The position numbers and the translations under genes were made by a program. A stretch of DNA of 40,622 nucleotides from a virus, in the IMG/VR virus record IMGVR_UViG_3300046010_015986, positions 1 through 40,622 of that record; one strand, written 5' to 3'. The notes beneath the pieces were generated by a model. The model saw nothing but the letters and a program-made list of their open reading frames with translations. It was not told the origin of the DNA and made no database searches. Below are positions 2,158-35,343 of this stretch, one piece after another. Each line of letters opens with the position of its first letter. Within the stretch, counting starts at the first letter, position 1.

Positions 2158-2166
2158 AGGTTTCTC

Positions 2167-3252
2167 CTAATTAAATTTTTTAATTCCATGGTCATGATCT
2201 GTAGGAACTGGTCTAAAACCACTATTGTTAAAGACTGGAGTTCTTTCTTCTTCGCATACCTTCCAAACTAATTCTAAAGCATATTTAGAAATCTTTTCAA
2301 TACCATCATAGTTCAATTTATCTGGCGTATCCAGTGGAGTATGATAATAGTTGTGACCGCCAGTATGTAAGAATGCAATAGGCACTCTTTTGTTATAAAA
2401 AACAGCATGATCACTACCGCCACCACTTCTAGTTGTTATGTTTTTTGCAAATGAATACTTATCACTTAATTCTCCAATATATTTTGTAATGTTTATAGAA
2501 CTCTCTTGATTTTCAAAAGATGTTTTAATCTTTCCCTTAGTTAAATAGCCAACCATATCCATATTCAGCATGAATATATGGCTCTTAATATTTGGGTCAT
2601 TTGCAGGAAGGATTGGATTTTCAACATAGAATTCGCTGCCCAAAAGACCCATTTCTTCCGCTGAAAAAGCAATGAATAAAATAGTTCTTTTATTATTCAT
2701 GTTTGAAAAGCCTTTGGCGATTTCAAGTAGGGCTGCAGTTCCCGATGCGTTATCATCTGCTCCGGGATGAATTTTAATTTTATTTGGAGCCATGCTCATT
2801 TTTGGTCCATAGCCAATATGATCCATATGTGCGCCAACGACAACAATTTCTTTTTTTCTATTTTCATCTTTGCCGATACGCCAAGCACAAACATTTTGTG
2901 TGAAGTCATCGCCAATTTCATTTTTAGGACCAGAATTTAATCTTCTAATTTTAAACTTCTGATATTGTGTGTTATATCCTAATTCATCAAATTTATTTTT
3001 GATAAATTCTGCTGCCAATACATTACCTTTTTTACCACTCATTCTGCCTTCCAATTCGTCTGACGCTAAATATTCAACTGTTTTTTTGGCAGAATCAGAA
3101 TTTATTTTTTCTAAGGCGGTTTGCAAAGAATCAAATTGTTTTTTTGGTTCGACTTCTAATCGATCAATTGAGTCATATTTTGTTTGTTTTGATACATAAG
3201 CGACTAGACACATAAATCCCAATGCCAAAACAATAATTTGTAACTTTTTCAT
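2167..3252 (-). CDS. Exported or membrane-anchored M28-family zinc aminopeptidase
   Basis: The 361-residue product begins with a KK pair and a hydrophobic stretch (about 4-20), a signal peptide or signal anchor, so it should act outside the cytoplasm. The M28 co-catalytic zinc set is complete: H142 and D144 in AHMDH, the bridging D166 in GADDNASG, E199/E200 in SAEEMGLLGS, D232 in NMDMVG, and H304 in YYHTPLDT. M28 enzymes remove N-terminal amino acids or cleave dipeptides using two zinc ions. It is the first gene of the leftmost minus-strand run and lies divergent to the terminase gene. Phages rarely carry a full-length M28 peptidase. Possible roles are host envelope protein processing or nutrient scavenging, neither shown by sequence. 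Family assignment is firm; role is unknown. Confidence 0.92.
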   Translation of the reverse strand: MKKLQIIVLALGFMCLVAYVSKQTKYDSIDRLEVEPKKQFDSLQTALEKINSDSAKKTVEYLASDELEGRMSGKKGNVLAAEFIKNKFDELGYNTQYQKFKIRRLNSGPKNEIGDDFTQNVCAWRIGKDENRKKEIVVVGAHMDHIGYGPKMSMAPNKIKIHPGADDNASGTAALLEIAKGFSNMNNKRTILFIAFSAEEMGLLGSEFYVENPILPANDPNIKSHIFMLNMDMVGYLTKGKIKTSFENQESSINITKYIGELSDKYSFAKNITTRSGGGSDHAVFYNKRVPIAFLHTGGHNYYHTPLDTPDKLNYDGIEKISKYALELVWKVCEEERTPVFNNSGFRPVPTDHDHGIKKFN

Positions 3253-3326
3253 GATTTTAATTTATACTCCAAATAATTTTGCGAAAATCTATATATTTTA
3301 AGTTAGTTTACAAAACAGGAAAACTT
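3253..3326. promoter_or_regulatory. Divergent intergenic region with TATATATT box
   Basis: This 74-base gap separates the divergent M28 peptidase and terminase genes and must hold start signals for both. On the plus strand TATATATT at 3290-3297 lies 29 bases before the chosen terminase ATG, a plausible -10-like element. No -35 hexamer at normal spacing is visible. A phage late promoter with only a -10 box would look like this, but AT-rich sequence gives such boxes by chance. Confidence 0.35.
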
Positions 3327-5150: not shown

Positions 5151-6032
5151 ATGTCAATTAAAGATTTCATAAAAGAAAAGTTAAAAAAGCCAACAATATC
5201 TGTTGATATCAATGAATATGAAGATGTCACAAGAACTGATTTGTTGGTATTGAAAGATAGAAAAAAATTATATGATATTTTTCTTAATCTAGAACAATTG
5301 TCTAGATGTTTGAATTATATTGATTATCCAAAAAAGAATGAAATTTTATTTTATGTAAGTATGCAAGATATTACAAAGCATAATGATGAATACATTAAAT
5401 TCTTAGAATGGTCTAAAAATAATAAAAATGAAACAATTGAAAAAATACAAAAAAGAATAGCAAATATTAGATCTTTTGCTTTGTTAGATTCAGATGTTAC
5501 TTTGGATGATATAGATATTGTGACTAATTATAAGTGCGAATCTGTTCTGGAAACTTCCAAGTTTATTTCTGATATCTTAAGTGATGCGGATGATTATATT
5601 AAATCTTCATGGATTAAAATTAAACCAAAATCAGATACAGTTTTTGAATTAAATACAGAAAATGAAAGTTTTAAAGTTACATTTGAAGATTATTCATTTA
5701 ATCTCGAATCTTTAAATGAATCTGATATTCATTCAGATATGAAGGTTATTCAAAAAACTCTTAATGAATACAATGATAAATATAAAGAATTATATTTTGT
5801 CACAAAAAAATCAGAAAGAAATAGAATTCAAGAATCTATTAGAAGGATGTATTTGGGAAAATATTACACAGCATTCAAATATTCGTTTGAAACAAACAAA
5901 CCTATTGTGTCAGAGAATTATGATATTTGGAAAATAAAAGTAAAAAACAAACACACAAGATTTGAATTTGGAAGTTATAGATTGATTGATGATTCGGCAC
6001 CAATTCGTTACATAAAATTGGAAGAACAATGA
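5151..6032 (+). CDS. Conserved-looking hypothetical protein downstream of terminase
   Basis: The gene begins 3 bases after the terminase stop, with GGTGG just ahead of the ATG, and ends overlapping the next gene by 4 bases, so it is in the terminase transcript. The 293-residue product is Lys/Asn/Asp/Glu-rich, with predicted helices around residues 70-120 and 190-235 and a more beta-like C-terminus. It has no signal peptide, membrane segment or catalytic motif that I recognise. It does not resemble a portal protein, which often lies near terminase. Its position suggests a packaging, head-completion or neck role, but that is inference only. Confidence 0.75.
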   Translation: MSIKDFIKEKLKKPTISVDINEYEDVTRTDLLVLKDRKKLYDIFLNLEQLSRCLNYIDYPKKNEILFYVSMQDITKHNDEYIKFLEWSKNNKNETIEKIQKRIANIRSFALLDSDVTLDDIDIVTNYKCESVLETSKFISDILSDADDYIKSSWIKIKPKSDTVFELNTENESFKVTFEDYSFNLESLNESDIHSDMKVIQKTLNEYNDKYKELYFVTKKSERNRIQESIRRMYLGKYYTAFKYSFETNKPIVSENYDIWKIKVKNKHTRFEFGSYRLIDDSAPIRYIKLEEQ

Positions 6033-6361
6033 AAAAAAATTACAAACAAATAAAAGAAAATATTGCAAAGGTTATGTCTGATGTAAGAAGTCATTATGAT
6101 TTAAGCGAAGCCATGTTCCATCTTAGTGCAGCATTGTCTTTTATTGAACAAAGAGAGAACAAAGAAATTAGAAGAAAATCTAATACTCTTGAGTCATCCA
6201 ATAATTGGATTTTAAATAATGGAAGAATTATGAATCCTGAGGTTGCAAAGAAGATGGTGAATCAAATAGATAAACTTATAGAATTTGAAAATAAAAAGTT
6301 GCAAAATTTTACAACTACAAATACTCAGAATGATAATGAAGAAATGACTCTAATTGATTAG
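6029..6361 (+). CDS. Small helical hypothetical protein
   Basis: The 110-residue product starts in an ATGA overlap with the preceding gene and stops with TAG at 6359-6361. The stop's AG forms part of the AGGAG ribosome-binding site of the next gene. The sequence is highly charged and predicted helical (about 5-55 and 70-95), with a polar tail rich in Thr, Asn and Glu. No domain is recognised. The tight coupling on both sides supports it as a real member of the terminase run. Confidence 0.7.
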   Translation: MKKNYKQIKENIAKVMSDVRSHYDLSEAMFHLSAALSFIEQRENKEIRRKSNTLESSNNWILNNGRIMNPEVAKKMVNQIDKLIEFENKKLQNFTTTNTQNDNEEMTLID

Positions 6362-6368
6362 GAGAATT

Positions 6369-6887
6369 ATGAAAGAAAACTGGAATGGTATAATGAAAAT
6401 TGTTGAAGTTAAAATTATACGCAACAATGAAGTGATTTGGGAAGATAAGAATTTATATAACATTCTTCATTCTGATGGTGAATCCATGATACTTCAAACG
6501 CTATTTTATAATGATGGATCAATGCCACCAGAATATTATTATCTTGGTTTGGATAGTAGAACCGAATTGGCATATGCAGATACCATGGAAGACATTATAG
6601 ATGAGCCATCTGGTAGTGGCTATATCAGACAGCAAATAAGTTCATCTTCTACGGTAAATAGTGGATGGAATATATCAATAGGCACTTCTTTGCACAAAGC
6701 AGTTACGAATATTGTATCTTTCAATGCAACTGATTCATATGGACCTGTTAGTAATTTGTTTTTAACTGATGCTTCTGATAACTCTGGAAATTTAATATCC
6801 AGTGTTTCCCTAAGTTCTCCAGCGACTTTGAACTCTGGCGATACATTAAGTCTAAGAATGACATTGTCACTTAGAGATTGCCCTTAA
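6369..6887 (+). CDS. Small virion-like protein (fibre/neck-type beta protein)
   Basis: I place the start at ATG 6369, 4 bases after AGGAG, rather than at the upstream TTG at 6354; a second ATG at 6393 is also possible. The product is about 172 residues. After a short N-terminal strand region (KIVEVKIIRNNEVIW) comes a segment with NILHSDGESMILQTLF and a YYLGLD strand, then a beta-rich, Ser/Thr/Gly/Asn-rich C-terminus ending in alternating hydrophobic strands (TLSLRMTLSLRDC). This layout resembles that of the small virion protein at 30107-30586: an early helix before a loop with a YYLGLD or LFGDGG strand, then terminal beta strands. I infer a distant structural relation. The exact role is unknown. 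It ends in a 4-base stop overlap with the gene on the opposite strand. Confidence 0.65.
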   Translation: MKENWNGIMKIVEVKIIRNNEVIWEDKNLYNILHSDGESMILQTLFYNDGSMPPEYYYLGLDSRTELAYADTMEDIIDEPSGSGYIRQQISSSSTVNSGWNISIGTSLHKAVTNIVSFNATDSYGPVSNLFLTDASDNSGNLISSVSLSSPATLNSGDTLSLRMTLSLRDCP

Positions 6888-7294
6888 ATAATCGAATCTA
6901 ATAAAACGCTATCGTCATATATTTCAACAATATGAACGACATTGTATCTGATAGATTTTATTTTTGATGAGCTATATTCTTTATATTGAAGCATTTGTCT
7001 GCCTCCATCTTTTTCGTCTTTTAAAGTGTCGAAAATAGGCATGGATATTTTATCAAGATATTTTGGAAGATTTATAATATATCCTTCAGAATATTTGCTG
7101 ATTGCTTTTTTTTTGTCATTAATACTCAAAATATATTTACAAAATACTTCCTTTGCAGGTTCTGAAGTTTTACCTTTATAAAACCAAACTGGAAATGAAA
7201 TTCCAATTACCTCTAAGGTCGATTCTACAACAGATAATTCATATCTTTGTTTTTTTGTCAAAAAGATATTGTGTGATACCGTTAGAGTTAGCAT
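6884..7294 (-). CDS. Hypothetical protein, single minus-strand gene in a plus run
   Basis: The 136-residue product has mixed beta/alpha character, with Lys-rich segments around 75-90, and no recognised motif, signal peptide or membrane span. It lies alone on the minus strand between two plus genes. Its TAA shares TTAA with the stop of the upstream-facing gene, and its start lies 43 bases from the divergent protease gene. The ribosome-binding site is weak (GGTCT). Isolated strand-switched genes like this are often accessory cargo, but nothing in the sequence gives a function. Confidence 0.65.
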   Translation of the reverse strand: MLTLTVSHNIFLTKKQRYELSVVESTLEVIGISFPVWFYKGKTSEPAKEVFCKYILSINDKKKAISKYSEGYIINLPKYLDKISMPIFDTLKDEKDGGRQMLQYKEYSSSKIKSIRYNVVHIVEIYDDSVLLDSII

Positions 7295-7303
7295 TGATAG
7301 ACC

Positions 7304-7313
7304 TATATAAAAT
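7304..7313 (+). promoter_or_regulatory. Candidate AT-box promoter of the secreted protease
   Basis: TATATAAAAT lies 24 bases before the ATG at 7338, in the only 43 bases separating divergent genes. It resembles both a -10 element and a T4-type late box (TATAAATA). There is no clear -35 element. Confidence 0.3.
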
Positions 7314-7337
7314 TAGTATTACATTAAAAGAGGAATA

Positions 7338-8216
7338 ATGAAAAAAATAATTACATTTCTTTTTATGATGGTTGTATTTTTATTTTCTAATTTTGCTGAA
7401 GCCAGCGAAATACCAAATAAATCTGTGGCAGAAATGCCAATTTTTCAACCAGTAGTAAATTACCATGGTTCTGCTCCAATCGAACAAAGGGGCATAGAAT
7501 TTCGCAAATGGTTAGCACCATCAGTAAAAATTGCAGTATCTGGAGGATCTGGATCTGGAACTATTGTCTACTATGACAATGTAAAAAATATAGCTTATGT
7601 TGCGACATGTGGACATTTATGGAATCGTGGAACAATGTCGGCTGAAGAAGGCAAAAAAAAGAATTTAACTTGTAAAATTTTGACATGGTATCAAAATGAT
7701 ATAAAATTGGCAGAACCGAAGACATATAATGCTAAAGTAATTTTTTATTCTTATATCTCAGATGCAGATACCGCTTTAGTAACTTTTGAACCTGATTGGA
7801 GACCAAATTTTTTCCCAATCGCACCAATTGATTATAAATATAAAGAAGGAAAAATAATGCATAGTATTGGTTGCGATGGAGGAGATGAAGTTGCACATTA
7901 TGAAGTTCAAATAGTCGGTCTATTTAACAAAAGCCTAACAACAATAAAGAATAGTCCACGACCCGGAAGAAGTGGTGGTGGCTTAATGGATGACAAATTA
8001 TATCTTGCCACATGTGTAGCCACATCTAATATTGATGGTTCTGGAGAAGGATATTTCACTCCATTAAGTGTTATACATGAGGTATATTCTGGAAATGGCT
8101 ATGATTTTCTTTTAAAAATAAAACCGGGTTCTGATATAGCAAAGAAAATAAAAATTATTGATCGTAGCATTTGGCATCAAAAATATGATGAAAATTATAT
8201 TTTGATTCCTAATTAG
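7338..8216 (+). CDS. Exported trypsin-like (chymotrypsin-fold) serine protease
   Basis: The 292-residue product starts with a textbook signal peptide (KK, hydrophobic 4-18, likely cleavage after A22 in AEA), so it is exported. The catalytic triad of an S1-type protease is visible in order: H93 in ATCGHLW, D144 in DADTALV, and the nucleophile S212 in GRSGGGL. The spacing fits the double beta-barrel fold. AGAGG precedes the ATG. The gene stands alone on plus between two minus genes and ends with TAG inside a TTAG overlap with the facing nuclease gene. Likely roles, all inferred, are cleavage of host envelope or surface proteins, release, or superinfection exclusion. No PDZ, adhesin or peptidoglycan-binding domain is attached. 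Confidence 0.87.
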   Translation: MKKIITFLFMMVVFLFSNFAEASEIPNKSVAEMPIFQPVVNYHGSAPIEQRGIEFRKWLAPSVKIAVSGGSGSGTIVYYDNVKNIAYVATCGHLWNRGTMSAEEGKKKNLTCKILTWYQNDIKLAEPKTYNAKVIFYSYISDADTALVTFEPDWRPNFFPIAPIDYKYKEGKIMHSIGCDGGDEVAHYEVQIVGLFNKSLTTIKNSPRPGRSGGGLMDDKLYLATCVATSNIDGSGEGYFTPLSVIHEVYSGNGYDFLLKIKPGSDIAKKIKIIDRSIWHQKYDENYILIPN

Positions 8217-10468: not shown

Positions 10469-10966
10469 ATGAAAAATCTATTATTCTTACAATGGCACTT
10501 AATTTTCACTTTCATTTGTGTAATATCAATAATTTTATTTCAATGCGGTATAGCAAAAGAAATCTGGATTAAAGATTCAAGTTTTTTAAGTTATATTACA
10601 TATATTATATTCTTAATTTGTTCTCTTCATGCAGGAAACCTGTGTTATCAAATTTCTAAAATTTCTAAAAATTCAAAAGATATTGCCATTTATAAAAATA
10701 AATCAGAGATAGGATGGTTTGTAAGTGAGCTTTGTTTGACATTGGGAATGATGGGAACAATTATTGGTTTCATTATGATGCTTTCTGGCTTTAATTCATT
10801 AGACATTCAAAATATCACATCTGTTCAAGCTCTGCTCACACAATTGGGCGGAAGTATGGCTACTGCGTTATACACAACAATCGTTGGTTTGGTTTGTGGT
10901 AGTATTCTAAAATTGCAATTCTTTCTTATTGCTATTGAACTTGATAAATTAGAAAACAATATTTAA
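10469..10966 (+). CDS. MotA/TolQ/ExbB-like proton-channel subunit
   Basis: The 165-residue membrane protein has four hydrophobic spans (about 8-26, 40-58, 86-106, 127-157). The last two carry the family signature: GMMGTIIGFIMML, then GGSMATALYTTIVGLVCG, including the pore-facing Thr region (T96, T136/T137). In known systems (MotA, TolQ, ExbB, ZorA) five such subunits surround a dimer of a D-bearing partner and turn proton flow into mechanical work. This version is shorter than TolQ or MotA and lacks a long cytoplasmic domain or tail. The next gene encodes the expected single-span, Asp-bearing partner, 9 bases downstream. AAGGA precedes the ATG. Channel activity is inferred from family and context. 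Confidence 0.8.
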   Translation: MKNLLFLQWHLIFTFICVISIILFQCGIAKEIWIKDSSFLSYITYIIFLICSLHAGNLCYQISKISKNSKDIAIYKNKSEIGWFVSELCLTLGMMGTIIGFIMMLSGFNSLDIQNITSVQALLTQLGGSMATALYTTIVGLVCGSILKLQFFLIAIELDKLENNI

Positions 10967-10975
10967 TGAGGTTAA

Positions 10976-11617
10976 ATGAACTTTAGAAAAAACTATTCTT
11001 GTAACACTTCATTTTTAGATTTGCTTTTCAACATGTTGTTAGCTTTTACTTGCCTATTTATTCTTTCATTTGCATTGATAAATCAAAATAAAAAAACTCC
11101 TGAGTCTAAAGCTTCATATCTAATAACTTTTGTTTGGGGAAAAGAACTTGATAATGATGTTGATGCTTATGTAGAAGATCCAGAAGGAAACTTAGTTTGT
11201 TTTGGAAGACGAGAAGATGGATTGATGCATCTTGATCGTGATGATCTTGGTCACAGAAATGATACTGTACAAACAAAATTTGGCACAATTGTATATTCAG
11301 AAAATAAAGAAATAGTCACCCTAAGAGGCACATCTGTTGGTGAATATTGTGTTAATGTTCACGCTTATAATTTCAATGATCAAAAGCCAACAGAAGTTAT
11401 TGTTCAATTAGAAAAAGTAAGTCCAACATATGGTGTCTTAATTCAGAGAAAAATAACATTAATGAAAAATGGCGATGAAAAAACAGCTTTTCGTTTTAAA
11501 ATTAATGGAAAAGGCGAATTAGCTGGCATTTCAGAGATTGAAAAGAAATTGCTTGGTAGAAAGCCAAAAGAAAGTGAACCAGCTAGAACACCTATAATCC
11601 CACCAGAAATTCCTTGA
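10976..11617 (+). CDS. ExbD/MotB-like stator subunit fused to a DUF2135-like domain
   Basis: The 213-residue product has a short cytoplasmic N-terminus and one membrane span (about 13-35: FLDLLFNMLLAFTCLF onward) with an Asp, D15, at its start, where ExbD, TolR and MotB keep their proton-carrying Asp. The outer part is not the OmpA peptidoglycan-binding domain of MotB or ZorB, nor obviously TolR. Instead residues about 48-180 resemble DUF2135/YfaP-type beta domains: a VDAYVEDPEGNLV strand-turn, an acidic HLDRDD stretch and a YCVNVHAYNF strand. Two cysteines (C75, C125) could pair outside the cytoplasm. A Pro-rich tail ends it. GAGG precedes the ATG, and the next gene starts 6 bases later. The pairing with the MotA-like gene is the strongest evidence. 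Confidence 0.75.
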   Translation: MNFRKNYSCNTSFLDLLFNMLLAFTCLFILSFALINQNKKTPESKASYLITFVWGKELDNDVDAYVEDPEGNLVCFGRREDGLMHLDRDDLGHRNDTVQTKFGTIVYSENKEIVTLRGTSVGEYCVNVHAYNFNDQKPTEVIVQLEKVSPTYGVLIQRKITLMKNGDEKTAFRFKINGKGELAGISEIEKKLLGRKPKESEPARTPIIPPEIP

Positions 11618-11623
11618 GGTCTT

Positions 11624-12244
11624 ATGGACATAAATGCAATTGGTATTCCATTAACATTCTTAGTATTATGTGCTATTGGTTTATGGATGATTATATTTTC
11701 TAAAGGATTTTGGGCTTTTAAAACTTTATTTATAACATTTTGTTTGTATTTTAGTTTTGCTATGTGGTTTTCTCTTAGTGATTTAAGTGGATGGGCGACA
11801 TCCGTTGCTATGCCTCAGAAATCAATTATTCATTGGATTCTTGTTCAAGAGCCATCTAAATTCAATAAAAAAGATGATGGTGGTATATTTGTTTGGGCTA
11901 CTGAAGCAGACACAGAAAATAAAGTTATAGAAAAAAGTATTATTTATTTATTGAAACCATTTTCAATTCGTAAGAATAGTGTTGAACCACGAGCTTACAG
12001 ATTATCTTACTCAGAAGAATTGCATCAAAATGCTGCAAAAGCAATGCAAATGATTATGAGTGGCAAAACAATTATTGGAGAAAAATCTGGCAATGGAACA
12101 GGAGAGGCAGAGGCATTAGGAAAAGAGAGTCATGGCGAAAGTAAGGGAAATGGAAGTGGTAGTTTAAGCCAAGAGCAAGTTTTTAGATTTTATGAATTGC
12201 CACCATTTAAATTGCCAGAAAAAATAACTGGCAGAAGCAATTAA
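11624..12244 (+). CDS. Two-span membrane protein, third gene of the proton-channel module
   Basis: The 206-residue product has two clear hydrophobic spans (about 8-26 and 31-50), then a soluble region of mixed structure (about 60-150), a Gly/Glu/Ser-rich linker (about 150-180) and a short C-terminal tail ending in PPFKLPEK. I do not recognise the family. It follows the ExbD-like gene by 6 bases with GAGG overlapping the junction, so the three membrane genes are almost certainly co-translated. By position it could be an accessory stator subunit, an effector, or a holin-like protein, though the long soluble domain argues against a simple holin. Its TAA sits in TTAA shared with the facing small gene. 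Confidence 0.7.
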   Translation: MDINAIGIPLTFLVLCAIGLWMIIFSKGFWAFKTLFITFCLYFSFAMWFSLSDLSGWATSVAMPQKSIIHWILVQEPSKFNKKDDGGIFVWATEADTENKVIEKSIIYLLKPFSIRKNSVEPRAYRLSYSEELHQNAAKAMQMIMSGKTIIGEKSGNGTGEAEALGKESHGESKGNGSGSLSQEQVFRFYELPPFKLPEKITGRSN

Positions 12245-12420
12245 AATTCTGGATCTTTATTTTTTAACCAATTTGAAAAAAATTCATTTTTCATCTCTAA
12301 CTTATTTGGAAGTTTTTTGAATTTTTTGGTTTTTTTAGCCCATTTTTCGCAATCAACCTTGCCGCCAAATCCTTTGCTAGCAAAGCATGCTTTCCATTGG
12401 GATTTACTTTTAAATGGCAT
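12241..12420 (-). CDS. Small MPFKSK-type phage protein (59 aa)
   Basis: This 59-residue basic protein begins MPFKSKSQWKACFA and continues through a KWAKKTKKFKKLP segment. That matches the layout of a short phage protein family that opens MPFKS-x-x-Q and contains a W-x-K/E-x-T-x-x-LP region. Its role is unknown to me. The ATG overlaps the TAA of the upstream acidic protein by one base (TAATG), and its own TAA shares TTAA with the facing membrane-protein gene. Both junctions support it as real. Confidence 0.7.
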   Translation of the reverse strand: MPFKSKSQWKACFASKGFGGKVDCEKWAKKTKKFKKLPNKLEMKNEFFSNWLKNKDPEF

Positions 12421-13688
12421 TATGATCTCTCATTAATTAAAATTTTTATATAATTTTTTTTCTGTTCAAGATTTAATGGCAATAAAGGTGATACACATTC
12501 AATGGTAGATTCAATTGGAGAATCTCCATCACTAATTATTTCATTTACAATAATCTTATATTCGTGTAATAGATCTTCGAACTCTTCTTTTTCCATATGA
12601 TCAATAAGAGCCGTGTTTAATTTTTCTTCTAATTTTTCAAATTCATCTTTTAAAGATGGACTTGCATTTTTCTTCCACTTTGAAAATAATTTTTTATATG
12701 GTTCTTTTTTTCTTAAGGCAGATTTAATTTTTTTGAAAGTTGCAATTGTTTCGTCAAGGTTAAATGGGAATTTTTCTTCTTCTGGTGATTCAGACTCATC
12801 GCCAGAACGACTAGGGATAGGACCAGTTCCGTGAATGGAATCTTTAATACTTAACCAAAGCTTTTCATCTGGATTTCTTCTATAAATTTCTAAATCTTTT
12901 TTTATTTTTTCATAAATATCATCTGGCATTTTTTTCTTTTTTGCTTCTTCTAATTCTTCATATGCATCTGCTATTTTCTTTTCTAAAAAAGGGTCTGCTT
13001 CTGGTTCTGGCTCTGGTTCTGGTTCTGGACTTTTCAATAGTTCTTCAATAGCTTGACATGCAGCTTCTATTTCGCCACGATTAATCATAGATTTTATTTT
13101 AAAATAATCTTTATGACTTATTTTTCCATCTCTATGTTTGTTTTCTAAATCAATACGACATTGATCTCCATCCTTATTGTCTGTTTCTGGAGATGATTCG
13201 GCTTCTGGAGATCCAGAAGTTTTAGAAAAATTTGAAAATAACTTTTTAAGTGTAATTTTAAGAGTTTTAGACCAATCATCAATTAAGCGCATAATTCTTA
13301 AATTATCAGTGCCATCTGCCTCATTGATTGAATTAATATTTTCTTCAAGTTTATCAAATAGAGATTTAATCTCCATGTATTCTTGTAAAGTTAAAGTTTG
13401 TGGATTGAAAGATTCTACTTTAGGGGCAGAAGCTCCAACTTTGGGAGCAGAAGCAGTCGGATCTTTTTTTGAAGAACCAGCGAAGTCACCAAGAGTATTG
13501 ATGAAATAATAGGGATTTTTTTGGTTATAACGACCATGCCAAGCATTAGATACGAAATTCTTAAACCTATCCCACAATCCACGCTTCTGAAATCCATCAC
13601 CAGAAATAATTTGTTTTTTGAGAATGGATACCAAATAATCTACAGATTGATCTATCTTACTCATTGATTCGGCATTCAAATCTGGCAT
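12420..13688 (-). CDS. Large acidic/basic helical protein with Pro-Glu tract
   Basis: I start at ATG 13688, with AGGAG 5 bases upstream, giving 422 residues; an upstream ATG at 13712 lacks such a site. Residues 1-60 form a helical, basic, Trp-containing segment. The middle holds charged predicted coiled-coil stretches and a PEPEPEPEPE tract (about residue 225-235), probably a flexible spacer. Further lysine/glutamate-rich helices follow. Nothing enzymatic or membrane-associated is visible. The modular helical-linker-helical layout could suit a scaffold, an internal head protein or an adaptor, but I do not recognise a family. It is coupled to the MPFKSK gene downstream. Confidence 0.7.
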   Translation of the reverse strand: MPDLNAESMSKIDQSVDYLVSILKKQIISGDGFQKRGLWDRFKNFVSNAWHGRYNQKNPYYFINTLGDFAGSSKKDPTASAPKVGASAPKVESFNPQTLTLQEYMEIKSLFDKLEENINSINEADGTDNLRIMRLIDDWSKTLKITLKKLFSNFSKTSGSPEAESSPETDNKDGDQCRIDLENKHRDGKISHKDYFKIKSMINRGEIEAACQAIEELLKSPEPEPEPEPEADPFLEKKIADAYEELEEAKKKKMPDDIYEKIKKDLEIYRRNPDEKLWLSIKDSIHGTGPIPSRSGDESESPEEEKFPFNLDETIATFKKIKSALRKKEPYKKLFSKWKKNASPSLKDEFEKLEEKLNTALIDHMEKEEFEDLLHEYKIIVNEIISDGDSPIESTIECVSPLLPLNLEQKKNYIKILINERS

Positions 13689-13731
13689 AATAACTCCTAA
13701 TAGGTGCAACAAAAATGCTGCTATTCAAAGA

Positions 13732-13739
13732 TATATATG
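13732..13739 (-). promoter_or_regulatory. Candidate AT-box promoter for the Pro-Glu tract gene
   Basis: On the minus strand a TATATAT box lies about 43 bases before the ATG at 13688, inside the 72-base gap after the tandem-domain gene. It matches the boxes seen before 3327, 7338 and 17146. Evidence is limited to position and composition. Confidence 0.25.
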
Positions 13740-13760
13740 ATTTGAATTACTTAAATTGAC

Positions 13761-14213
13761 TTATTGATTGCTAACATATTCATTGATTTTCTTCAAAGAC
13801 ATCAAACAAGAATCAAATCGGTGAAATTCACTTGATAAATATTCAAGGGAAAGTTCATCAAATTTATCACTTCCATCATCATCAATTTCAAAATAAACAG
13901 CTTTTCCTTTTTTCCCAAGAACTTTATATTTGTGCATAAGGATATAAGCTGCAGCACCTAAATCTGTAACATATCTTTGACTTTTTGCTTGAAATGAATA
14001 GTCTCCAATTTTTTTCAAAGACATAATACATGCGTCAAAACGATGAAATTCACTCGATAAATAATCAAGAGTCAATTGATCAAAATGATCGTTTGATTTA
14101 TTTTCATCTGTCGAAAAAAGAATATCTTTTCCTCTTTTTCCAACCACCTTATAATCATGCATAAGTAAATATGCTGCAGCACCAAGATCACTAATGTTTT
14201 TATAATTTGCCAT
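13761..14213 (-). CDS. Tandem-duplicated DUF5659-like protein
   Basis: The 150-residue product is two copies of a roughly 75-residue unit. Each contains DLGAAAYxLMHxYKVxGKxGK, a D/N-rich turn, then LxxEY/DYLSSEFHRFDxCxMSLKKI. The copies are highly similar, so the duplication is either recent or constrained. The unit looks like the small phage domain known as DUF5659, whose function is not established. I use ATG 14213 rather than the upstream ATG at 14258, because the latter would overlap the actin-like gene and give a basic, low-complexity leader. The gene follows the actin-like ATPase by 22 bases. Tandem domains could bind a repetitive partner such as a filament or nucleic acid, but this is speculation. 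Confidence 0.75.
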   Translation of the reverse strand: MANYKNISDLGAAAYLLMHDYKVVGKRGKDILFSTDENKSNDHFDQLTLDYLSSEFHRFDACIMSLKKIGDYSFQAKSQRYVTDLGAAAYILMHKYKVLGKKGKAVYFEIDDDGSDKFDELSLEYLSSEFHRFDSCLMSLKKINEYVSNQ

Positions 14214-14235
14214 GTTTTTTCTTTCTTTCTTTGTT

Positions 14236-15240
14236 TTATCTTGCGTTTTCTGCAGCAATTAAACATCCACGAGCCACACTATAGAGTGGGTCTTCTGGAC
14301 GAATAACATCACCAATTTTAATTGGCAATTTGGCTTGCATGATCGTATCTCTAAACATCTTATCAAAACCGGGAGGAGAAGATGTACCACCAGCAATTAC
14401 GATATCTACAGGCGTATCACTATGGACTGCTTTGTTGGAAGTTGATAATCCTTTTTTAATTTCAGCGATTGTATGCTCAATCATAATTCTATATTGGGTT
14501 TGAATTGCTCGTTCAACCATAGTTGTTGGAACAGCACCCAAATCAACTTTTGTTTTTTCTTTATTGATATAAGTAGGAGTATCGCCAGTAGCCTTTGCAG
14601 CTTGTCTGTCAATCCAATCGCCACTATTTACAATGGCAAATTTAAATAATGGATTTCCATACATCGAATAACAAAGGTTTACCATTCCGGCACCAAAAGA
14701 AATGCCAATTCCCGTATATGCTTTTTTACCCAATTCTGCATAAACCAATGCTAATGCTTCGTTGATTGGATGTGCGTTAACTTTATATCCCTTATCAGAT
14801 TCGTATGCCTTGAAAATAGCCTCAAGAACCTTAGTATGATAATCGGCATCAGTATCTTCATTAATTGCATTTGCTGGAACGCAATAATATAAAGTTTCAT
14901 TGTCTTGTTTTACACCATCAAGCAAGCTATGAATCATAATATTCAAAATTTGAAAAGCATCTTTTTCTTTTGGATTAACACATCCACCAGACATTGGTCG
15001 TTTAAGCTCAAGTTGGCTAATTGTATATGCCATATTTACTGCAGCTTCTCCAATTACATAAGCAACATCGTCTCGCTCAATAATAGGCGCACCAGCTTGT
15101 TTCATCATGTCAAATACATATCTGTTTTCTAAAGGAAGTTCAATAAACGCATTTATTTCACGATGATTTACAAAATTTTTATTTTCATCTCTTTGGCAGC
15201 AAACCAAATTGTAGGTTCCAACATCAAATCCAATTGCCAT
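14236..15240 (-). CDS. Actin/Hsp70-fold ATPase (bacterial actin-like, ParM/Alp type)
   Basis: The 334-residue protein carries the actin-superfamily nucleotide pocket: phosphate-1 GFDVGTYN (4-11) with D6, a connect-1-type NEALA (160-164) with E161, phosphate-2 GISFGAGMVNL (179-189), a SGDWID segment (207-212) like the GGDxID of Hsp70/MreB, and the adenosine motif VIAGGTSSPPG (281-291). The length matches ParM and Alp filaments rather than DnaK, and there is no substrate-binding domain. AAGGAG precedes the ATG. Likely roles are phage genome segregation, positioning of replication centres, or transport to the cell membrane. A small upstream gene (15250-15480) is in the position of a filament adaptor. 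The exact subfamily is not identifiable by eye. Confidence 0.85.
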   Translation of the reverse strand: MAIGFDVGTYNLVCCQRDENKNFVNHREINAFIELPLENRYVFDMMKQAGAPIIERDDVAYVIGEAAVNMAYTISQLELKRPMSGGCVNPKEKDAFQILNIMIHSLLDGVKQDNETLYYCVPANAINEDTDADYHTKVLEAIFKAYESDKGYKVNAHPINEALALVYAELGKKAYTGIGISFGAGMVNLCYSMYGNPLFKFAIVNSGDWIDRQAAKATGDTPTYINKEKTKVDLGAVPTTMVERAIQTQYRIMIEHTIAEIKKGLSTSNKAVHSDTPVDIVIAGGTSSPPGFDKMFRDTIMQAKLPIKIGDVIRPEDPLYSVARGCLIAAENAR

Positions 15241-15249
15241 ATTTTCTCC

Positions 15250-15480
15250 TTATGATTTTTTCCCAAAGTTTAATTTTGGTACATTTCCAAAATCGGGTAT
15301 TTGCCAAGCAACATCATCTTTTTTCTTTTCTTCTTTTTCATCACTAACTTTTGCTGCTTGTGCATTAACTGCAACACCTAAGGTATTCAAATTGATATTT
15401 AAATCAATACTTATAGAAAGCTTACATTCGCCATCTTTCGTAATTACTTTAACATCACTAGACTTTATAAGTTGTGCCAA
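15250..15480 (-). CDS. Small acidic/basic protein upstream of the actin-like gene
   Basis: The 76-residue product has an N-terminal beta-like part (SDVKVITKDGECKLSISIDL), an alternating hydrophobic N/L segment, a charged EKEEKKKDD linker and a C-terminal peptide PKLNFGKKS. It ends 9 bases before the actin-like ATPase start and so is almost certainly co-expressed. ParM-type systems usually pair with a small DNA-binding adaptor. This protein has no visible ribbon-helix-helix, so a partner role is contextual inference only. Confidence 0.6.
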   Translation of the reverse strand: MAQLIKSSDVKVITKDGECKLSISIDLNINLNTLGVAVNAQAAKVSDEKEEKKKDDVAWQIPDFGNVPKLNFGKKS

Positions 15481-15511
15481 TTTAACCTCTTGTATTTAAT
15501 ATAGTTTATCA

Positions 15512-16474
15512 TTATAAAGATTTGTAATTCCATTTTTGAAACATTTTGTCAATTCCTTCAATTAATTCATTAGAAGATAATTCTGTCAAACAAGGTTTAA
15601 TTTGTTTTTTTGATTTTGGACAGTTTCCATGTATAAAACAAGGTCCACAATCCCAATTTCCATTATCTCTATGTTTTTGAATAAGAATAAATTCATAATG
15701 TTTTCCATAAACTTTCCCATCGGCAAATGTAAAAATACCACATAATGGTTTTTTTAACCCACCAGCTAAATGAAAGGCTGCTGTATCTACAGTAATCATA
15801 TAGTCAACACAATCGACATAGCATATAAGTTCTTTTATGCTTATGTTACTTATTGTGGGTATGCCTAGTTTTTTACATTCACTAAGTTCTTCTTTGTGGA
15901 AAGCAACTAACGAATAATCTTTGCACCTATTTGCTATTGCTTGGATTTGTTCTGGAAGTAAACTTTTCACGATCATTTTTGATTTTGGAGCAAAACCAAT
16001 TAATGGCTTACCAACTTTTCTATATTTATCTAATTTTTCTTTAACTGAATCTCTTAATGATTTATTTAAAACAAAGTTCATTTCATGTGATGTTAACGAT
16101 ATTCCACAATATCTTGCCCAAATATCACTTCTATTTTCATTATAATTAGGAGCATTATAATTTTCATATCGATTAACTATGGTTACACATGTATTAAAAC
16201 AATGGATATAATCATCTAAATTTACAGTTCTGGCATCAACAAATTTATCAATCGCTGGATGATCAACTGCAGCATCTAAATACTCTGGCAAACATGCAAA
16301 AGTTATTTCTGCATTTGGCAAATTTCTTCTAATATCATCAAATATCATGCGCTGCATAAAAACATCGCCAAGACCACCCTTATCATGCCAAATAAGAACT
16401 TTATCTTTAATTTCATGAAAATTTTTAAGAGTTAAAATTTTCTTTTTATAATTGCTTTTCTTTAATTCAGCCAT
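15512..16474 (-). CDS. Glycosyltransferase family 9-like (heptosyltransferase-fold) protein
   Basis: The 320-residue protein has the GT-B layout of the ADP-heptose:LPS transferases. The N-terminal Rossmann domain carries the glycine loop DKGGLGDVFM (31-40), and the C-terminal domain carries ITVDTAAFHLAGGLKKP (227-243), the D-T-x-x-x-H-L signature that binds the nucleotide. The C-terminus has four cysteines (C276, C279, C285, C295) that could bind a metal. GT9 enzymes add heptose or related sugars to lipopolysaccharide. In a phage it may alter host surface glycans or decorate virion proteins. It starts 12 bases beyond a strong hairpin terminator. It is the most convincing of several glycosyltransferase-like genes in the window. 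Confidence 0.85.
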   Translation of the reverse strand: MAELKKSNYKKKILTLKNFHEIKDKVLIWHDKGGLGDVFMQRMIFDDIRRNLPNAEITFACLPEYLDAAVDHPAIDKFVDARTVNLDDYIHCFNTCVTIVNRYENYNAPNYNENRSDIWARYCGISLTSHEMNFVLNKSLRDSVKEKLDKYRKVGKPLIGFAPKSKMIVKSLLPEQIQAIANRCKDYSLVAFHKEELSECKKLGIPTISNISIKELICYVDCVDYMITVDTAAFHLAGGLKKPLCGIFTFADGKVYGKHYEFILIQKHRDNGNWDCGPCFIHGNCPKSKKQIKPCLTELSSNELIEGIDKMFQKWNYKSL

Positions 16475-16486
16475 TGTTTCTCTTCA

Positions 16487-16524
16487 AAAAAAATACCACT
16501 ATCTTAAAATAGTGGTATTTTTTT
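16487..16524. terminator. Strong symmetrical hairpin terminator
   Basis: A perfect 16-base-pair inverted repeat (seven A, TACCACTAT, loop CTTAAA, then ATAGTGGTA and seven T) works as an intrinsic terminator in either direction. It lies 44 bases past the stop of the gene at 16568-17146 and only 12 bases before the GT9 start. It should therefore cap the transcript of the 192-residue protein. It is the only clear intrinsic terminator I found in the window. Confidence 0.88.
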
Positions 16525-16567
16525 GATTTAGATAATCTTACTTTTGTAAGTTCATAGTAACATATTT

Positions 16568-17146
16568 TTAACTCAAACAAGATCTTCTTACAGAACAAAG
16601 AACTTGAACATCTGCATCAATTGCACCAGAAATAGTATTTGTAAATTCTAATTTTGTGACCAATAAATCGCCACTATTGAAAACTTGAGTTTCTGATTGA
16701 CCAAGTACGAATATAGCACTTTCCAAACCATTGATTCTAATATTTATTTGGTTTTCTCCAAAATTAGTAATTTGTACAAAATTAGAGAATGAACCAGTAT
16801 CACCAGATATATCAATAACATTATCTTCATATGCTGATGAAGGAGACACTGTCAAAGTGTAAACTGATGGGAAGTTGTTTTCTGCTGGATTTTCACTATA
16901 GATAGAGCCATCGTCAGAAATAACTTCAATAAAGGCTTGGTCTTCTCCAACTTGAGGATATGCAAATTGTTTCCAATAATTGCAGTCAACAAATTCCTCA
17001 CCATCAAAAAGTTTTCGATATTTTCTTCCCGGACCTTGAACAAAAATAGTTCTTTGAACAGAAGTAGAGAATTGAGACTGTGTTGCGGGATTAACATCCA
17101 TTGTTCCCTGCTTGCTATTATTTAGTTTTACTCTGAATTCGCTCAT
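16568..17146 (-). CDS. Probable abundant virion protein (192 aa)
   Basis: The 192-residue product begins MSEFRVKLNNSKQG and is predicted mostly beta, with an FVQGPGRKYRKLFDGEEF segment (about 35-52) and a C-terminal Ig-like half (about 95-190) of alternating hydrophobic strands ending in a double-Cys tail. There is no signal peptide. It stands as its own unit: a strong AGAGGAG site 5 bases before the ATG, an AT box 34 bases upstream, and the window's best terminator directly after it. That arrangement, typical of highly expressed structural genes, suggests a head decoration, neck or fibre-base protein. I do not recognise the family, and enzymatic function is unlikely. Confidence 0.7.
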   Translation of the reverse strand: MSEFRVKLNNSKQGTMDVNPATQSQFSTSVQRTIFVQGPGRKYRKLFDGEEFVDCNYWKQFAYPQVGEDQAFIEVISDDGSIYSENPAENNFPSVYTLTVSPSSAYEDNVIDISGDTGSFSNFVQITNFGENQINIRINGLESAIFVLGQSETQVFNSGDLLVTKLEFTNTISGAIDADVQVLCSVRRSCLS

Positions 17147-17180
17147 GTTTCTCCTCTTGTTATAGAATGAATTTCATTTT

Positions 17181-17188
17181 TATATATA
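17181..17188 (-). promoter_or_regulatory. Candidate promoter box of the 192-aa virion protein
   Basis: TATATATA lies about 34 bases before the ATG at 17146 in an 82-base non-coding gap. With the terminator downstream it would define a single-gene transcript. There is no convincing -35 element. Confidence 0.35.
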
Positions 17189-17228
17189 TTTTTGGATATA
17201 ACTTCTCATTGGTGATTTATCTATTTTT

Positions 17229-17840
17229 TTACCAATTCATGCTTATAACATTAATTTGAGGAAAAATAGCTTTATATAAAGCCGTTCCAAGACCAGAATC
17301 AATTAATGTGCAATTTATATTTTTTAAAGCACAATTCAGCAATGTTTCATTTTCAACAGAATATATTGAAGAATATTCGTCATGATTTTCATTTACAAAG
17401 CAATTTTTTCCTTTAGATTCTAAATTTTTAACTAATTTTTCAACATGTTGCGAAGATAATGATTTAGTTGGTATATCTCCATTTGTATAAATGTAAATTT
17501 TTGAAGTTATTTCCTTACTTGGCTGTGATAATATTGGTGGTTTTATGTCCGACTCTATTAGTAGCTCGTGAATTGGATGTTGTTTAAAATCAGTCATAAT
17601 ATTTCGAACATAACAATAATTTTCTTTTTTAAAATTGCTTTTTCTTACACATCTTGGTTCATCCTGCAATAAATAATATGATTCATCCTTGCAAGCAATA
17701 TAAATGCTTACTCCTTTATATTTTGCCTCCATGTATGGTCTTAACATTTTAAGTAAAATGATAAATTCATTATTGTTTCCGAAATAGCAGAAACAGTAAT
17801 TATTTTTAACTTTCAAATATTGTTCAAAAGGTAATGTCAT
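17229..17840 (-). CDS. Degenerate GT-B/glycosyltransferase-like protein
   Basis: The 203-residue product starts with a short Rossmann-like strand-helix (NNYCFCYFGNNNEFIILLKML). It ends with IDSGLGTALYKAIFPQINVISM, which mirrors the D-T-x-x-x-H-L-A-x-x-x-x-x-P segment of GT9 C-terminal domains but with changed key positions. Between them, KIYIYTNGD matches the usual start of a GT-B C-terminal domain. It is shorter than active GT-B enzymes, so it may be a truncated or regulatory relative, and catalysis is doubtful. Its ATG shares a CATG palindrome with the divergent small gene at 17839. Confidence 0.5.
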   Translation of the reverse strand: MTLPFEQYLKVKNNYCFCYFGNNNEFIILLKMLRPYMEAKYKGVSIYIACKDESYYLLQDEPRCVRKSNFKKENYCYVRNIMTDFKQHPIHELLIESDIKPPILSQPSKEITSKIYIYTNGDIPTKSLSSQHVEKLVKNLESKGKNCFVNENHDEYSSIYSVENETLLNCALKNINCTLIDSGLGTALYKAIFPQINVISMNW

Positions 17841-19515: not shown

Positions 19516-22500
19516 TTAATCTCCACAAGGAACTATAGCTACGCATTGACCTTTTTGGCTATCGCCATTTAATTTGCTTACATCAAGTTGTATTTTAACA
19601 TCAATTGGCGCACCTCTATAAACCATCTCTATTTCTGGTTTATCTGGCATAACAAGTCTAATTTCAGAAGGTATGCTACCAACAATTTCAATTTGTGGAG
19701 GTATACCAACAACTTGAATTTTATCTGGTATTCCACTTCCATCAATTTTAATTAATGTTGGGAAATTATCTGGCATTTCCAAACGAATGAAATTAGGAAT
19801 TTTACTTGCATCAATTTCAATTGTGCTTGGTATATTTTCAGAAACTAATTTTATTTCTCTTGGTAAATCCGTAGAAATTAATCTTATTTCACTTGGTATT
19901 TGGAAGTCACTAATTAAACTAATTGATGATGGAACCTTTAAAGCTTCGACCCTAATAAGAGCAGGAACATCATGCAATATCTTTATATCTGGAATTACAG
20001 GTGCAATAACCCTAATAATGCTTGGTATTCCAAGATCTGAAATTTCCACATTCATAGTTGGATCTATTGGTTCATCGGCAAATCTTGAAGCGAATGGAGA
20101 CGAACTTGCAGCAGGACAAACAATACTTATCGTGCAACTTACGGTTGGTGGAGTACCCCAATCAACACTTACAGTTGGTGGTGGACCAAAATTTATATTT
20201 GGAAATGTTGGATTAGGACCAAAACTTATATTTATAACTGTCGGCAAATTTGTTGGACCAAAGTTTATAAGTGAAGGCAAATTTGTTGGACCAAAGTTTA
20301 TAAGTGTTGGTAAGCTTGATGGACCAAAATTTATAAGTGTTGGTAAATTTGATGGACCAAAATTTATAAGTGTTGGTAAGCTTGATGGACCAAAATTTAT
20401 AAGTGTTGGTAAATTTGATGGACCAAAATTTATAAGTGTTGGTAAATTTGATGGACCAAAAACAATTTGTGTTGGTATATTTGATGGACCAAAAACAATT
20501 TGTGTTGGTATATTTGATGGACCAAAAACAATTTGTGTTGGCAAGCTTGATGGTCCAAAATCAATTATTGATGGTAAGCTTGATGGACCAAATTGAATTA
20601 CAGTACACAAACCAGTCAATGGACCAAAAACAATTTGTGTTGGTATGTTTGATGGACCAAAAACAATTTGTGTTGGTAAGCTTGATGGACCAAAATTTAT
20701 AAGTGTTGGTAAATTTGATGGACCAAAATTTATAAGTGTTGGTAAATTTGATGGACCAAAATTTATAATCGTTGGTAAGCTTGATGGACCAAAAACAATT
20801 TGTGTTGGTATGTTTGATGGACCAAAAACAATTTGTGTTGGCAAGCTTGATGGTCCAAAATCAATTATTGATGGTAAGCTTGATGGACCAAATTGAATTA
20901 CAGTACACAAACCAGTCAATGGACCAAAAACAATTTGTGTTGGTATGTTTGATGGACCAAAAACAATTTGTGTTGGCAAACTTGATGGTCCAAAAACAAT
21001 TTGTGTTGGCAAACTTGATGGTCCAAAATCAATTATTGATGGTAAATTTGATGGACCAAAAACAATCAGTGTTGGGCAATTCAATGGACCAAAGTTTATA
21101 AGACTACAAACAGGAAATGGTCCAAAATTTATAATCGTTGGTAAGCTTGATGGACCAAAAACAATTTGTGTTGGTATATTTGATGGACCAAAAACAATTT
21201 GTGTTGGCAAGCTTGATGGTCCAAAATCAATTATTGATGGTAAGCTTGATGGACCAAATTGAATTACAGTACACAAACCAGTCAATGGACCAAAAACAAT
21301 TTGTGTTGGTATGTTTGATGGACCAAAAACAATTTGTGTTGGTAGATTTGATGGTCCAAAATCAATTATTGATGGTAAATTTGATGGACCAAAAACAATC
21401 AGTGTTGGGCATATGATTGGACCAAAATTTATAATGCTACAAACAGGGAATGGTCCAAAATTTATAATCGTTGGTAAGCTTGATGGTCCAAAAACAATTT
21501 GTGTTGGCAAGCTTGATGGTCCAAAATCAATTATTGATGGTAAGCTTGATGGTCCAAACTGAATTATGCTACAAAAATTAGGCAATGGACCAAAGTTTAT
21601 GATCGTTGGTAATGTTGGTAATGGACCAAAACTAATTATCGTTGGTATGGTTAAAGGACCAAATGAAATAAGTGTTGGGCAAGTTAATGGACCAAAATTT
21701 ATAAGACTACAAACAGGGAATGGACCAAAACTAATTATCGTTGGGAATGTTGGCATAGGTCCAAAAGTAATTATCGTTGGGAATGTTGGCAGTGGACCAA
21801 AAGTAATTATCGTTGGTAGTTTCAATGGTCCAAACTGGATTATGCTACAAAAATTAGGCAATGGACCAAAGTTTATAATTGTTGGCAATGTTGGTAGTGG
21901 ACCAAAGGTAATTATCGTTGGGATATTAATTGGACCAAAGGTAATTATCGTTGGGAATGTTAATGGACCAAAACTAATAATTGTTGGTATATTTAAAGGA
22001 CCAAATGAAATAAGTGTTGGGCATATAATTGGACCAAAGTTTATGATGCTGCATACTGGAAATGGACCAAATTCAATCATAGTTGGGAATGTTGGAAAAC
22101 TACTAATTACAATTGAAGGAAATGTTGGAAGAGGTCCAAAATCTATAATCGTTGGTAACTTAAGTGGACCAAAATTAATCGTACTACAAAAATTAGGTAA
22201 AGGACCGAAAGTAATTATCGTTGGAATTGGAGGATCTACAACAATAATTGATGGAATATTAATTGGACCTAATGGTCCAATGTCTAAACAAGGAAATACA
22301 ATTGGTGGTGGCTGAACATTAATTGTAGGCAAATTAATTGTAGGTATTATAAGTTGTGGTATATCTGGAATATTTGGAATTAAAAACTCTAAAGGTTGAT
22401 TTGGAGTTTGTATATTAGGCTGCTTGGCTATCTCTCTTTCTGAAGGACTTTGCACAACAGTACATTGGTCTGTATTCACTTGAATCACAGGATCTATTGT

Positions 22501-23148
22501 GGTATTTGCTGCATAAACATGTGTGCCAGATAAATTAGTACTTGTAAATTTACCATCACCGAAGTCGAGTCTGAAACTTTTATATGAACCAGTAATTTCA
22601 ACATTATATGTTGCTATTGTTCCAGTTACTGGACTAATTGATGTGATTGCAAAAAAGAAAGTTACATCTGGACATGTGAAGTCGTCAAAAATCACTTCGA
22701 GTTCAGATAAATTTCTAATTCTCCAATCCAATGTTGTTTGATCTGTTGTAAAATTAAAACCAATAAAATTTTGAGTCTTTATAATTGCATCAGCAAGTTG
22801 ATTGTGGTGTTCTGATACTACAAATCCTCTTATTTCCGATCCAGCATAATTATATTTAGTTTTTGTTCCACCTAAATTTCTCGTGCAATTAGTTAATTTA
22901 TAAACTTTACCATTATTGTTTTTTAATACACCGCCATAATAAAAAAGCTCTCCACTTATATTTGCATATCCATTGTTCGCCCAAATTTCATTTTCATCTG
23001 CATTAACAGGATAAATCTCGATGTTTGCTTCCCAAGGATGATTATCTGAGGTTGTTACGGTTTCACTGGTGTTATAAACCAAATACAAAGTACGATCAGT
23101 ATCGTAATTTTTTGGATATACAGGAATTGGGGGGAAATTATTAGACAT
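19516..23148 (-). CDS. Giant FGP-repeat adhesin/fibre protein
   Basis: The 1210-residue product has three parts. Residues 1-130 match the N-terminal domain of the next two upstream proteins, including SEHHNQLADAI at 112-122. Residues about 165-230 contain a PKD-like fold with LDFGDGKF. From residue 314, about 60 FGP units follow, mostly 11 residues long (FGPSNLPTQIV-type, pattern F-G-P-x-x-hydrophobic-P-T/S-x-I-x), with 12-residue variants carrying Cys (LPNFCSIIQ, LTGLCTVIQ). A diverged IPSxI-type repeat continues to near the C-terminus. Regular short repeats with beta propensity suggest a rod or solenoid, so this may be a long fibre shaft or host-binding adhesin. No signal peptide is present, in keeping with a virion protein. 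It is the last of three related genes. Confidence 0.8.
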   Translation of the reverse strand: MSNNFPPIPVYPKNYDTDRTLYLVYNTSETVTTSDNHPWEANIEIYPVNADENEIWANNGYANISGELFYYGGVLKNNNGKVYKLTNCTRNLGGTKTKYNYAGSEIRGFVVSEHHNQLADAIIKTQNFIGFNFTTDQTTLDWRIRNLSELEVIFDDFTCPDVTFFFAITSISPVTGTIATYNVEITGSYKSFRLDFGDGKFTSTNLSGTHVYAANTTIDPVIQVNTDQCTVVQSPSEREIAKQPNIQTPNQPLEFLIPNIPDIPQLIIPTINLPTINVQPPPIVFPCLDIGPLGPINIPSIIVVDPPIPTIITFGPLPNFCSTINFGPLKLPTIIDFGPLPTFPSIVISSFPTFPTMIEFGPFPVCSIINFGPIICPTLISFGPLNIPTIISFGPLTFPTIITFGPINIPTIITFGPLPTLPTIINFGPLPNFCSIIQFGPLKLPTIITFGPLPTFPTIITFGPMPTFPTIISFGPFPVCSLINFGPLTCPTLISFGPLTIPTIISFGPLPTLPTIINFGPLPNFCSIIQFGPSSLPSIIDFGPSSLPTQIVFGPSSLPTIINFGPFPVCSIINFGPIICPTLIVFGPSNLPSIIDFGPSNLPTQIVFGPSNIPTQIVFGPLTGLCTVIQFGPSSLPSIIDFGPSSLPTQIVFGPSNIPTQIVFGPSSLPTIINFGPFPVCSLINFGPLNCPTLIVFGPSNLPSIIDFGPSSLPTQIVFGPSSLPTQIVFGPSNIPTQIVFGPLTGLCTVIQFGPSSLPSIIDFGPSSLPTQIVFGPSNIPTQIVFGPSSLPTIINFGPSNLPTLINFGPSNLPTLINFGPSSLPTQIVFGPSNIPTQIVFGPLTGLCTVIQFGPSSLPSIIDFGPSSLPTQIVFGPSNIPTQIVFGPSNIPTQIVFGPSNLPTLINFGPSNLPTLINFGPSSLPTLINFGPSNLPTLINFGPSSLPTLINFGPTNLPSLINFGPTNLPTVINISFGPNPTFPNINFGPPPTVSVDWGTPPTVSCTISIVCPAASSSPFASRFADEPIDPTMNVEISDLGIPSIIRVIAPVIPDIKILHDVPALIRVEALKVPSSISLISDFQIPSEIRLISTDLPREIKLVSENIPSTIEIDASKIPNFIRLEMPDNFPTLIKIDGSGIPDKIQVVGIPPQIEIVGSIPSEIRLVMPDKPEIEMVYRGAPIDVKIQLDVSKLNGDSQKGQCVAIVPCGD
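20150..22209. repeat. 33-bp tandem repeat tract (FGP codon repeats)
   Basis: About 60 in-frame units of 33 bases (some 36) run through the giant adhesin gene. Copies between about 20270 and 21560 are nearly identical, for example GATGGACCAAAAACAATTTG recurring many times; copies from about 21560 to 22209 are more diverged. A longer block beginning AATTGAATTACAG occurs at 20591, 20891 and 21257, spaced 300 and 366 bases, showing amplification of multi-unit blocks. All spacings keep the reading frame. Confidence 0.92.
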
Positions 23149-35342: not shown

Positions 35343-35343
35343 C

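Follow-up and report, generated by a model that had tools for sequence, protein, structure and literature searches.

Gene content of the locus

The window, that is the whole stretch of DNA analysed here, comes from an IMG/VR virus record and is a fragment of 40.6 kb with a G+C content of 32%. Since it encodes a terminase large subunit and baseplate wedge proteins (Table 1), it can be assigned to a contractile-tailed phage. Three genes, encoding a 76-residue protein, an actin-like ATPase and a tandem-domain protein, are located between the terminase gene on one side and the baseplate wedge and tail genes on the other. They are all encoded on the minus strand and are separated by 9 and 22 bases respectively, as the original prediction had described. 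Relatives of the 76-residue protein share the N-terminus M/L/V-A/P-Q-L-I-K, as obtained with the TTG start in the window. The TTG start called by the program for the tandem gene, at 14258, would make this gene overlap that of the ATPase and is probably incorrect. Promoter scans gave results at chance level.

Upstream of the cassette is a gene resembling glycosyltransferase (GT) family 9, which an HMM search found at 57 of the 83 actin loci that we compared (82 of lineage 1, and LR745208 of lineage 2). It usually, though not always, accompanies the cassette, with which it may be co-transcribed, and we do not count it as part of the core. An AT-rich inverted repeat located between this gene and a conserved neighbour of 192 residues, for which no family match was obtained and which we regard as context only, may serve as a transcription terminator ahead of the operon. 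Still further upstream is the gene of an FGP-repeat protein, kept at many loci.

Two other regions of the window deserve mention. A MotA/ExbB-like gene on the plus strand is followed by two genes that encode N-terminal hydrophobic stretches and have no Pfam match, and the set is a possible phage-borne ion-driven motor unit. Furthermore, ferritin-like and M28 peptidase genes are present on this phage contig.

Table 1. Positions of the cassette genes, their neighbours and inserted elements, in the window and at related loci
Feature	Sequence	Position	Strand	Remarks
Ferritin-like and M28 peptidase genes	window	1708-3252	-	2e-12 and 1e-41
Terminase large subunit gene	window	3279-5147		
MotA/ExbB-like gene and two following genes	window	10469-12244	+	MotA/ExbB-like, 2e-8
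Downstream partner, tandem protein, 150 aa from ATG	window	13761..14213	-	at 82/82 lineage-1 loci
Volactin-family actin-like ATPase, 334 aa	window	14236..15240	-	ATG start; Pfam PF25216
Upstream partner, 76 aa	window	15250..15480	-	TTG start; at 80/82 lineage-1 loci
GT family 9-like gene	window	15512..16474	-	Pfam PF01075, 2e-6; 31 bases upstream of the cassette
Inverted repeat	window	16487-16524		19 bp, 95%
192-aa conserved neighbour	window	16568..17146	-	homologue at 75/83 loci
FGP-repeat protein, 1210 aa	window	19516-23148	-	dozens of 11-residue repeats IPTIINFGPLx; 33-bp tandem units
Baseplate wedge genes	window	33786-35772		
Facultative fourth gene	L082	9083-9775		conserved C-terminus ..YxGLxxLvs..A..ivgklvaxqLKKlF
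Facultative fourth gene	L017	3822-4772		as above
Facultative fourth gene	L011	6198-7196		as above; present at others too
Actin gene with in-frame intein	L084 (RXKI01000042.1)	5369-7507		Hint/splicing and LAGLIDADG domains
GIY-YIG endonuclease gene	L008	2966-3598		between 76-aa gene and actin
GIY-YIG endonuclease gene	L036	5254-5973		between 76-aa gene and actin
GIY-YIG endonuclease gene	L067	5292-5987		between 76-aa gene and actin

The ATPase resembles archaeal volactin

Judged from its sequence, the ATPase is an actin of the Volactin family. Residues 1-330 align with positions 1-321 of the Pfam Volactin profile (PF25216) with an E value of 3.3e-74 and 250.7 bits, against a cut-off of 35, and each of the 32 sequences chosen to represent the phage set matches the same profile. 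The score against MreB_Mbl (E 2.9e-5, 23.5 bits) is under the cut-off of 27, and those against Pfam Actin (E 0.0027) and MamK are likewise under their cut-offs. Profile searches gave no match to the Hsp70 or ParM families at E <= 1 and none to Salactin. An AlphaFold2 model of the ATPase (pLDDT 84) has MamK, BeeR, MreB and actins as its top Foldseek matches in the PDB (5ljv, 4czk and others), with a structural-alignment identity to MreB of 15-18%. The ATPase thus resembles MamK and MreB most in structure, but it scores under both cut-offs and is devoid of an N-terminal extension of the E. coli MreB type. A DnaK-like chaperone is ruled out by the profiles, by the fold and by the tree, where the ATPase is placed apart from DnaK. 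Hence the prediction of an actin-superfamily protein was borne out, whereas the placement it had proposed among ParM, AlpA and MreB resolves to none of the three. Each record encodes a single actin.

The nucleotide-binding motifs are readily recognised as phosphate-1 (GFDVGT), phosphate-2 (ISFGAGM) and adenosine (IAGGTSSPPGF). The Asp usually found in phosphate-2, which is VVDIGGGT in E. coli MreB, is replaced by a Ser that is invariant across a 32-row alignment and also present in haloarchaeal volactins. This substitution could alter hydrolysis. It appears compatible with polymerisation, since the volactin of Haloferax volcanii forms filaments, provided that VolA shares the Ser that was read in Haloarcula and Natrinema members. 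VolA (HVO_2015) forms dynamic, tip-anchored filaments in vivo, and its cellular role is in the disk-shape transition (PMC10869688). The phage ATPase and VolA fall into the same profile family and are similar in length, and the haloarchaeal plasmid members align with the ATPase over the full length and have the same phosphate-2 loop with Ser. The ATPase differs in being phage-borne, and in the haloarchaeal loci examined there were no relatives of its two partners.

The two partner proteins

The 76-residue protein consists of a beta-rich N-terminal stretch (VKIVTKDGExxVSIxLxLNINLN), a variable charged linker and a near-invariant C-terminus (WxIPDFxxxxKxNFGK). P62, F64, F72, G73 and K74 are invariant in 35 sequences, and the charge of the protein is near neutral. 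Among the window ORFs and 400 kb of a 533-kb phage, about 440 kb in total, the C-terminal motif is confined to this protein, and the idea of a tag common to several phage proteins was therefore discarded. Its conservation pattern makes it look like a docking peptide. A resemblance between the N-terminus and the C-terminus of the FGP-repeat protein, seen by eye, was given a probability of 2% in a profile comparison and was likewise abandoned.

The tandem protein is a true duplication, the two copies being 74-80% alike at the DNA level with a spacing of 222-225. Its AlphaFold2 model (pLDDT 91) consists of two equal beta-alpha-beta-beta-alpha-alpha units of approximately 70 residues, and no fold match in the PDB or BFVD was obtained at E <= 0.001. 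The original prediction of a two-copy DUF5659-like protein is therefore correct as to the duplication, whereas the likeness to DUF5659 (PF18903) is distant and holds only in part. Three of 24 relatives match this family (best E 2.5e-5) but the window protein, which has the tandem form, does not. Single-domain versions are found at L082 (LR756511) and L069, on two deep branches, suggesting that the tandem probably arose by duplication within the lineage. Matches to the LidA coiled coil in 19 of 24 relatives (best 4.9e-7; 3.8e-4 and under the cut-off for the window protein) were not adopted, because the AlphaFold2 fold is of the alpha/beta type rather than a long coiled coil.

In a subset of the loci, the window not being one of them, a fourth gene of about 200-350 codons is located between the actin and tandem genes. 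It is facultative, and its product has no match in Pfam. The L014 and L015 versions contain, in addition, a peptide that is shared with the FGP-repeat protein.

Conservation of the cassette

The three-gene order is conserved far beyond chance. All 82 lineage-1 loci have the tandem gene after the actin on the same strand, and 80 have the 76-residue gene before it, again on the same strand; at the other two, L020 and L062, the contig ends within the cassette region. Median gaps over the loci are 10 and 26 bases. Conversely, a scan seeded with the tandem protein recovered the actin at all loci but one, L144, which begins at a contig end. The lineage-2 locus LR745208 is the sole one of the 83 without the tandem protein and the 76-residue protein. 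The conservation of neighbours on which the original prediction depended was thus found throughout lineage 1.

In a comparison with the closest relative, the actin has a dN/dS of 0.042 and the tandem protein one of 0.049, whereas the values for the other four genes that were measured are 0.14-0.25. Across the three relatives that gave a usable dS, the actin remains at 0.04-0.07. No other gene in the neighbourhood is under constraint as strong as that on the actin.

Distribution and phylogeny

Two scans of IMG/VR gave 89 and 149 relatives of the ATPase, most of them on records that are fragments. Many lineage-1 loci are nevertheless found on contigs of 100-595 kb (IMG/VR relatives up to 533 kb), which identifies these as huge phages. 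Among 50,697 phage records, only two matched, both of them from phages that are uncultured, one of 595 kb and one of 485 kb. A cellular host for the phage lineage was also considered and rejected. A conserved-peptide scan of 84,980 cellular genomes matched two contigs of metagenome-assembled genomes (MAGs), both partial or phage-like, and a phylum-wide search of 289 genomes around one of these gave no further member. Locus L084 carries the cassette along with the structural genes that adjoin it in the phages, and is therefore probably phage DNA that was binned with a bacterium.

Relatives encoded on haloarchaeal plasmids are 36-37% identical to the ATPase. Sequences like LR745208 constitute a second phage lineage, where the volactin gene adjoins genes assigned by eye as tail-completion, neck and sheath-like. 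These loci (L121-L127) have neither the tandem nor the 76-residue partner, and a gene of 180-234 codons directly upstream may encode the lineage-2 volactin's own partner. The tree resolves three groups, namely the two phage lineages and the haloarchaea, which together are separated from E. coli MreB, FtsA and DnaK with a support of 82/93. These three proteins were the only outgroups, ParM, AlpC and MamK being absent, and their branches have lengths of 6-10 changes per site, leaving the exact rooting and the direction of transfer unsure. The finding bears on the movement of volactins between phages and archaea.

Possible role of the cassette

The cytoskeletons known from phages consist of the PhuZ and TubZ tubulins together with a small number of ParM-like actins, and the Volactin family has until now been described from salt-loving archaea. 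In the literature searched, we found no volactin paper on phages and no Volactin actin of huge phages with two obligatory partners, although such absence is not proof. The jumbo-phage texts that we searched mention tubulin but no actin (PMC13282480, PMC7162821, PMC7824862).

We consider it somewhat probable that the cassette gives the phage an actin cytoskeleton of the volactin type and two partners dedicated to it, a system which would be used late and position virion parts or packaging sites. These viruses, in other words, probably build a filament skeleton of their own inside infected bacteria. Judged from its family, fold and nucleotide motifs, the ATPase would bind ATP and, by analogy with its archaeal relative, polymerise into dynamic filaments. 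Binding of the partners is suggested by their obligatory synteny together with the short, conserved and docking-like C-terminal motif. This motif may contact filaments or monomers, with the beta-rich N-terminus linking a cargo or an anchor, and the tandem DUF5659-like protein may be a second binder with two copies that could bridge two subunits or two filaments. Neither partner accompanies the lineage-2 genes or the haloarchaeal genes examined, suggesting that they are dispensable for polymerisation as such. From its position, the cassette is probably made late together with the structural proteins. The filament may then position or gather virion parts or packaging sites within a large infected cell, which is the weakest step of the proposed mechanism.

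The arrangement of the genes also recalls DNA segregation. In Corynebacterium prophage CGP3, the actin AlpC works with the adaptor AlpA in a system that acts early and is linked to DNA via alpS repeats (PMC4446434). Like alpA, the 76-residue gene is small, co-oriented and directly upstream of a phage actin gene, and it could accordingly encode an adaptor coupling phage DNA sites to the filament in a ParMRC- or AlpAC-like manner; the ParM-like dynamics of H. volcanii volactin filaments would fit. We nevertheless regard this as unlikely. Neither partner matches an HTH, RHH or other DNA-binding family in profile searches, which a new DNA-binding fold would escape, and the 76-residue protein is near neutral in charge. 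No centromere-like or iteron-like repeats were found at 12200-17300, a region that leaves distant sites uncovered; the repeats there are coding-domain duplications or low-complexity sequence and were dismissed as centromere candidates. The cassette has a late-gene setting and a third obligatory gene, whereas alpAC is induced early, and AlpC is presumably of another actin family. Given that no DNA-binding domain and no repeats were found, and that alpAC is early and linked to DNA, we favour late positioning of virion parts over DNA segregation of the ParM or AlpAC kind, although this is the least secure step. The positioning of phage DNA put forward in the original prediction thus finds no support in the partners or in the operon region.

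Nor is its alternative of replication-compartment positioning supported, given the location of the cassette in the late structural region and the results of searches for a phage nucleus. In 12 volactin-bearing records of 136-595 kb, many of them fragments, there was no match to tubulin (PF00091), a profile with which phiKZ PhuZ scores 5e-7, or to chimallin (PF25677), a profile that models phikzvirus chimallin only and for which the phiKZ positive control works. A phage nucleus or tubulin in these genomes was accordingly rejected. The cassette and the PhuZ spindle are both phage-encoded cytoskeletal NTPase systems of large phages with a proposed positioning role, but the one is built on actin and the other on tubulin. 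The volactin filament may take the place of the PhuZ spindle of nucleus-forming jumbo phages, which belongs to the same weakest step. Our tentative speculation, which we consider somewhat less likely than not, is that tubulin-less huge phages use an archaeal-type actin and two unnamed partners, one an adaptor with a short motif and the other a tandem DUF5659-like binder, as a late-infection cytoskeleton for virion assembly.

A location among tail or other structural genes in both phage lineages would also suit a non-cytoskeletal ATPase that helps to build the tail or neck or is incorporated into the virion. This is improbable, as the actin nucleotide motifs are intact, the conservation is very high, as is typical of polymerising actins, filaments have been shown for the cellular relative, and the flanking genes differ between lineages 1 and 2. 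Even less probable is interference with the host cytoskeleton, where the phage actin would co-polymerise with or poison MreB, or reshape the cell, under regulation by its partners. The influence of volactin on the shape of H. volcanii and the relatedness of the fold to MreB speak for it. Against it are the low structural-alignment identity to MreB given above, a very long tree branch from MreB, and the fact that two co-evolving phage partners would be superfluous.

If the proposed cytoskeleton is real, an obligatory three-gene actin cassette would give giant phages a second way of organising the infected cell, the W-IPDF-FGK tail would add a new motif for actin binding in prokaryotes, and a function would for the first time be linked to DUF5659-like domains. 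The cassette furthermore offers two candidate actin-binding partners, where none is known for archaeal volactin.

Homing elements

The cassette locus is a hotspot that has repeatedly been invaded by homing elements. Such elements usually target highly conserved sequences. The actin gene of L084 contains an in-frame intein inserted in the phosphate-2 ATP loop (GIS|CGAGM), and a Cys is present at the insertion site in many intein-free relatives. To our knowledge, no intein has been described in any actin-family gene. GIY-YIG endonuclease genes separate the 76-residue gene from the actin gene at three loci (Table 1), L062 and L063 have ORFs similar to these, and at L099 a LAGLIDADG gene is located after the actin.
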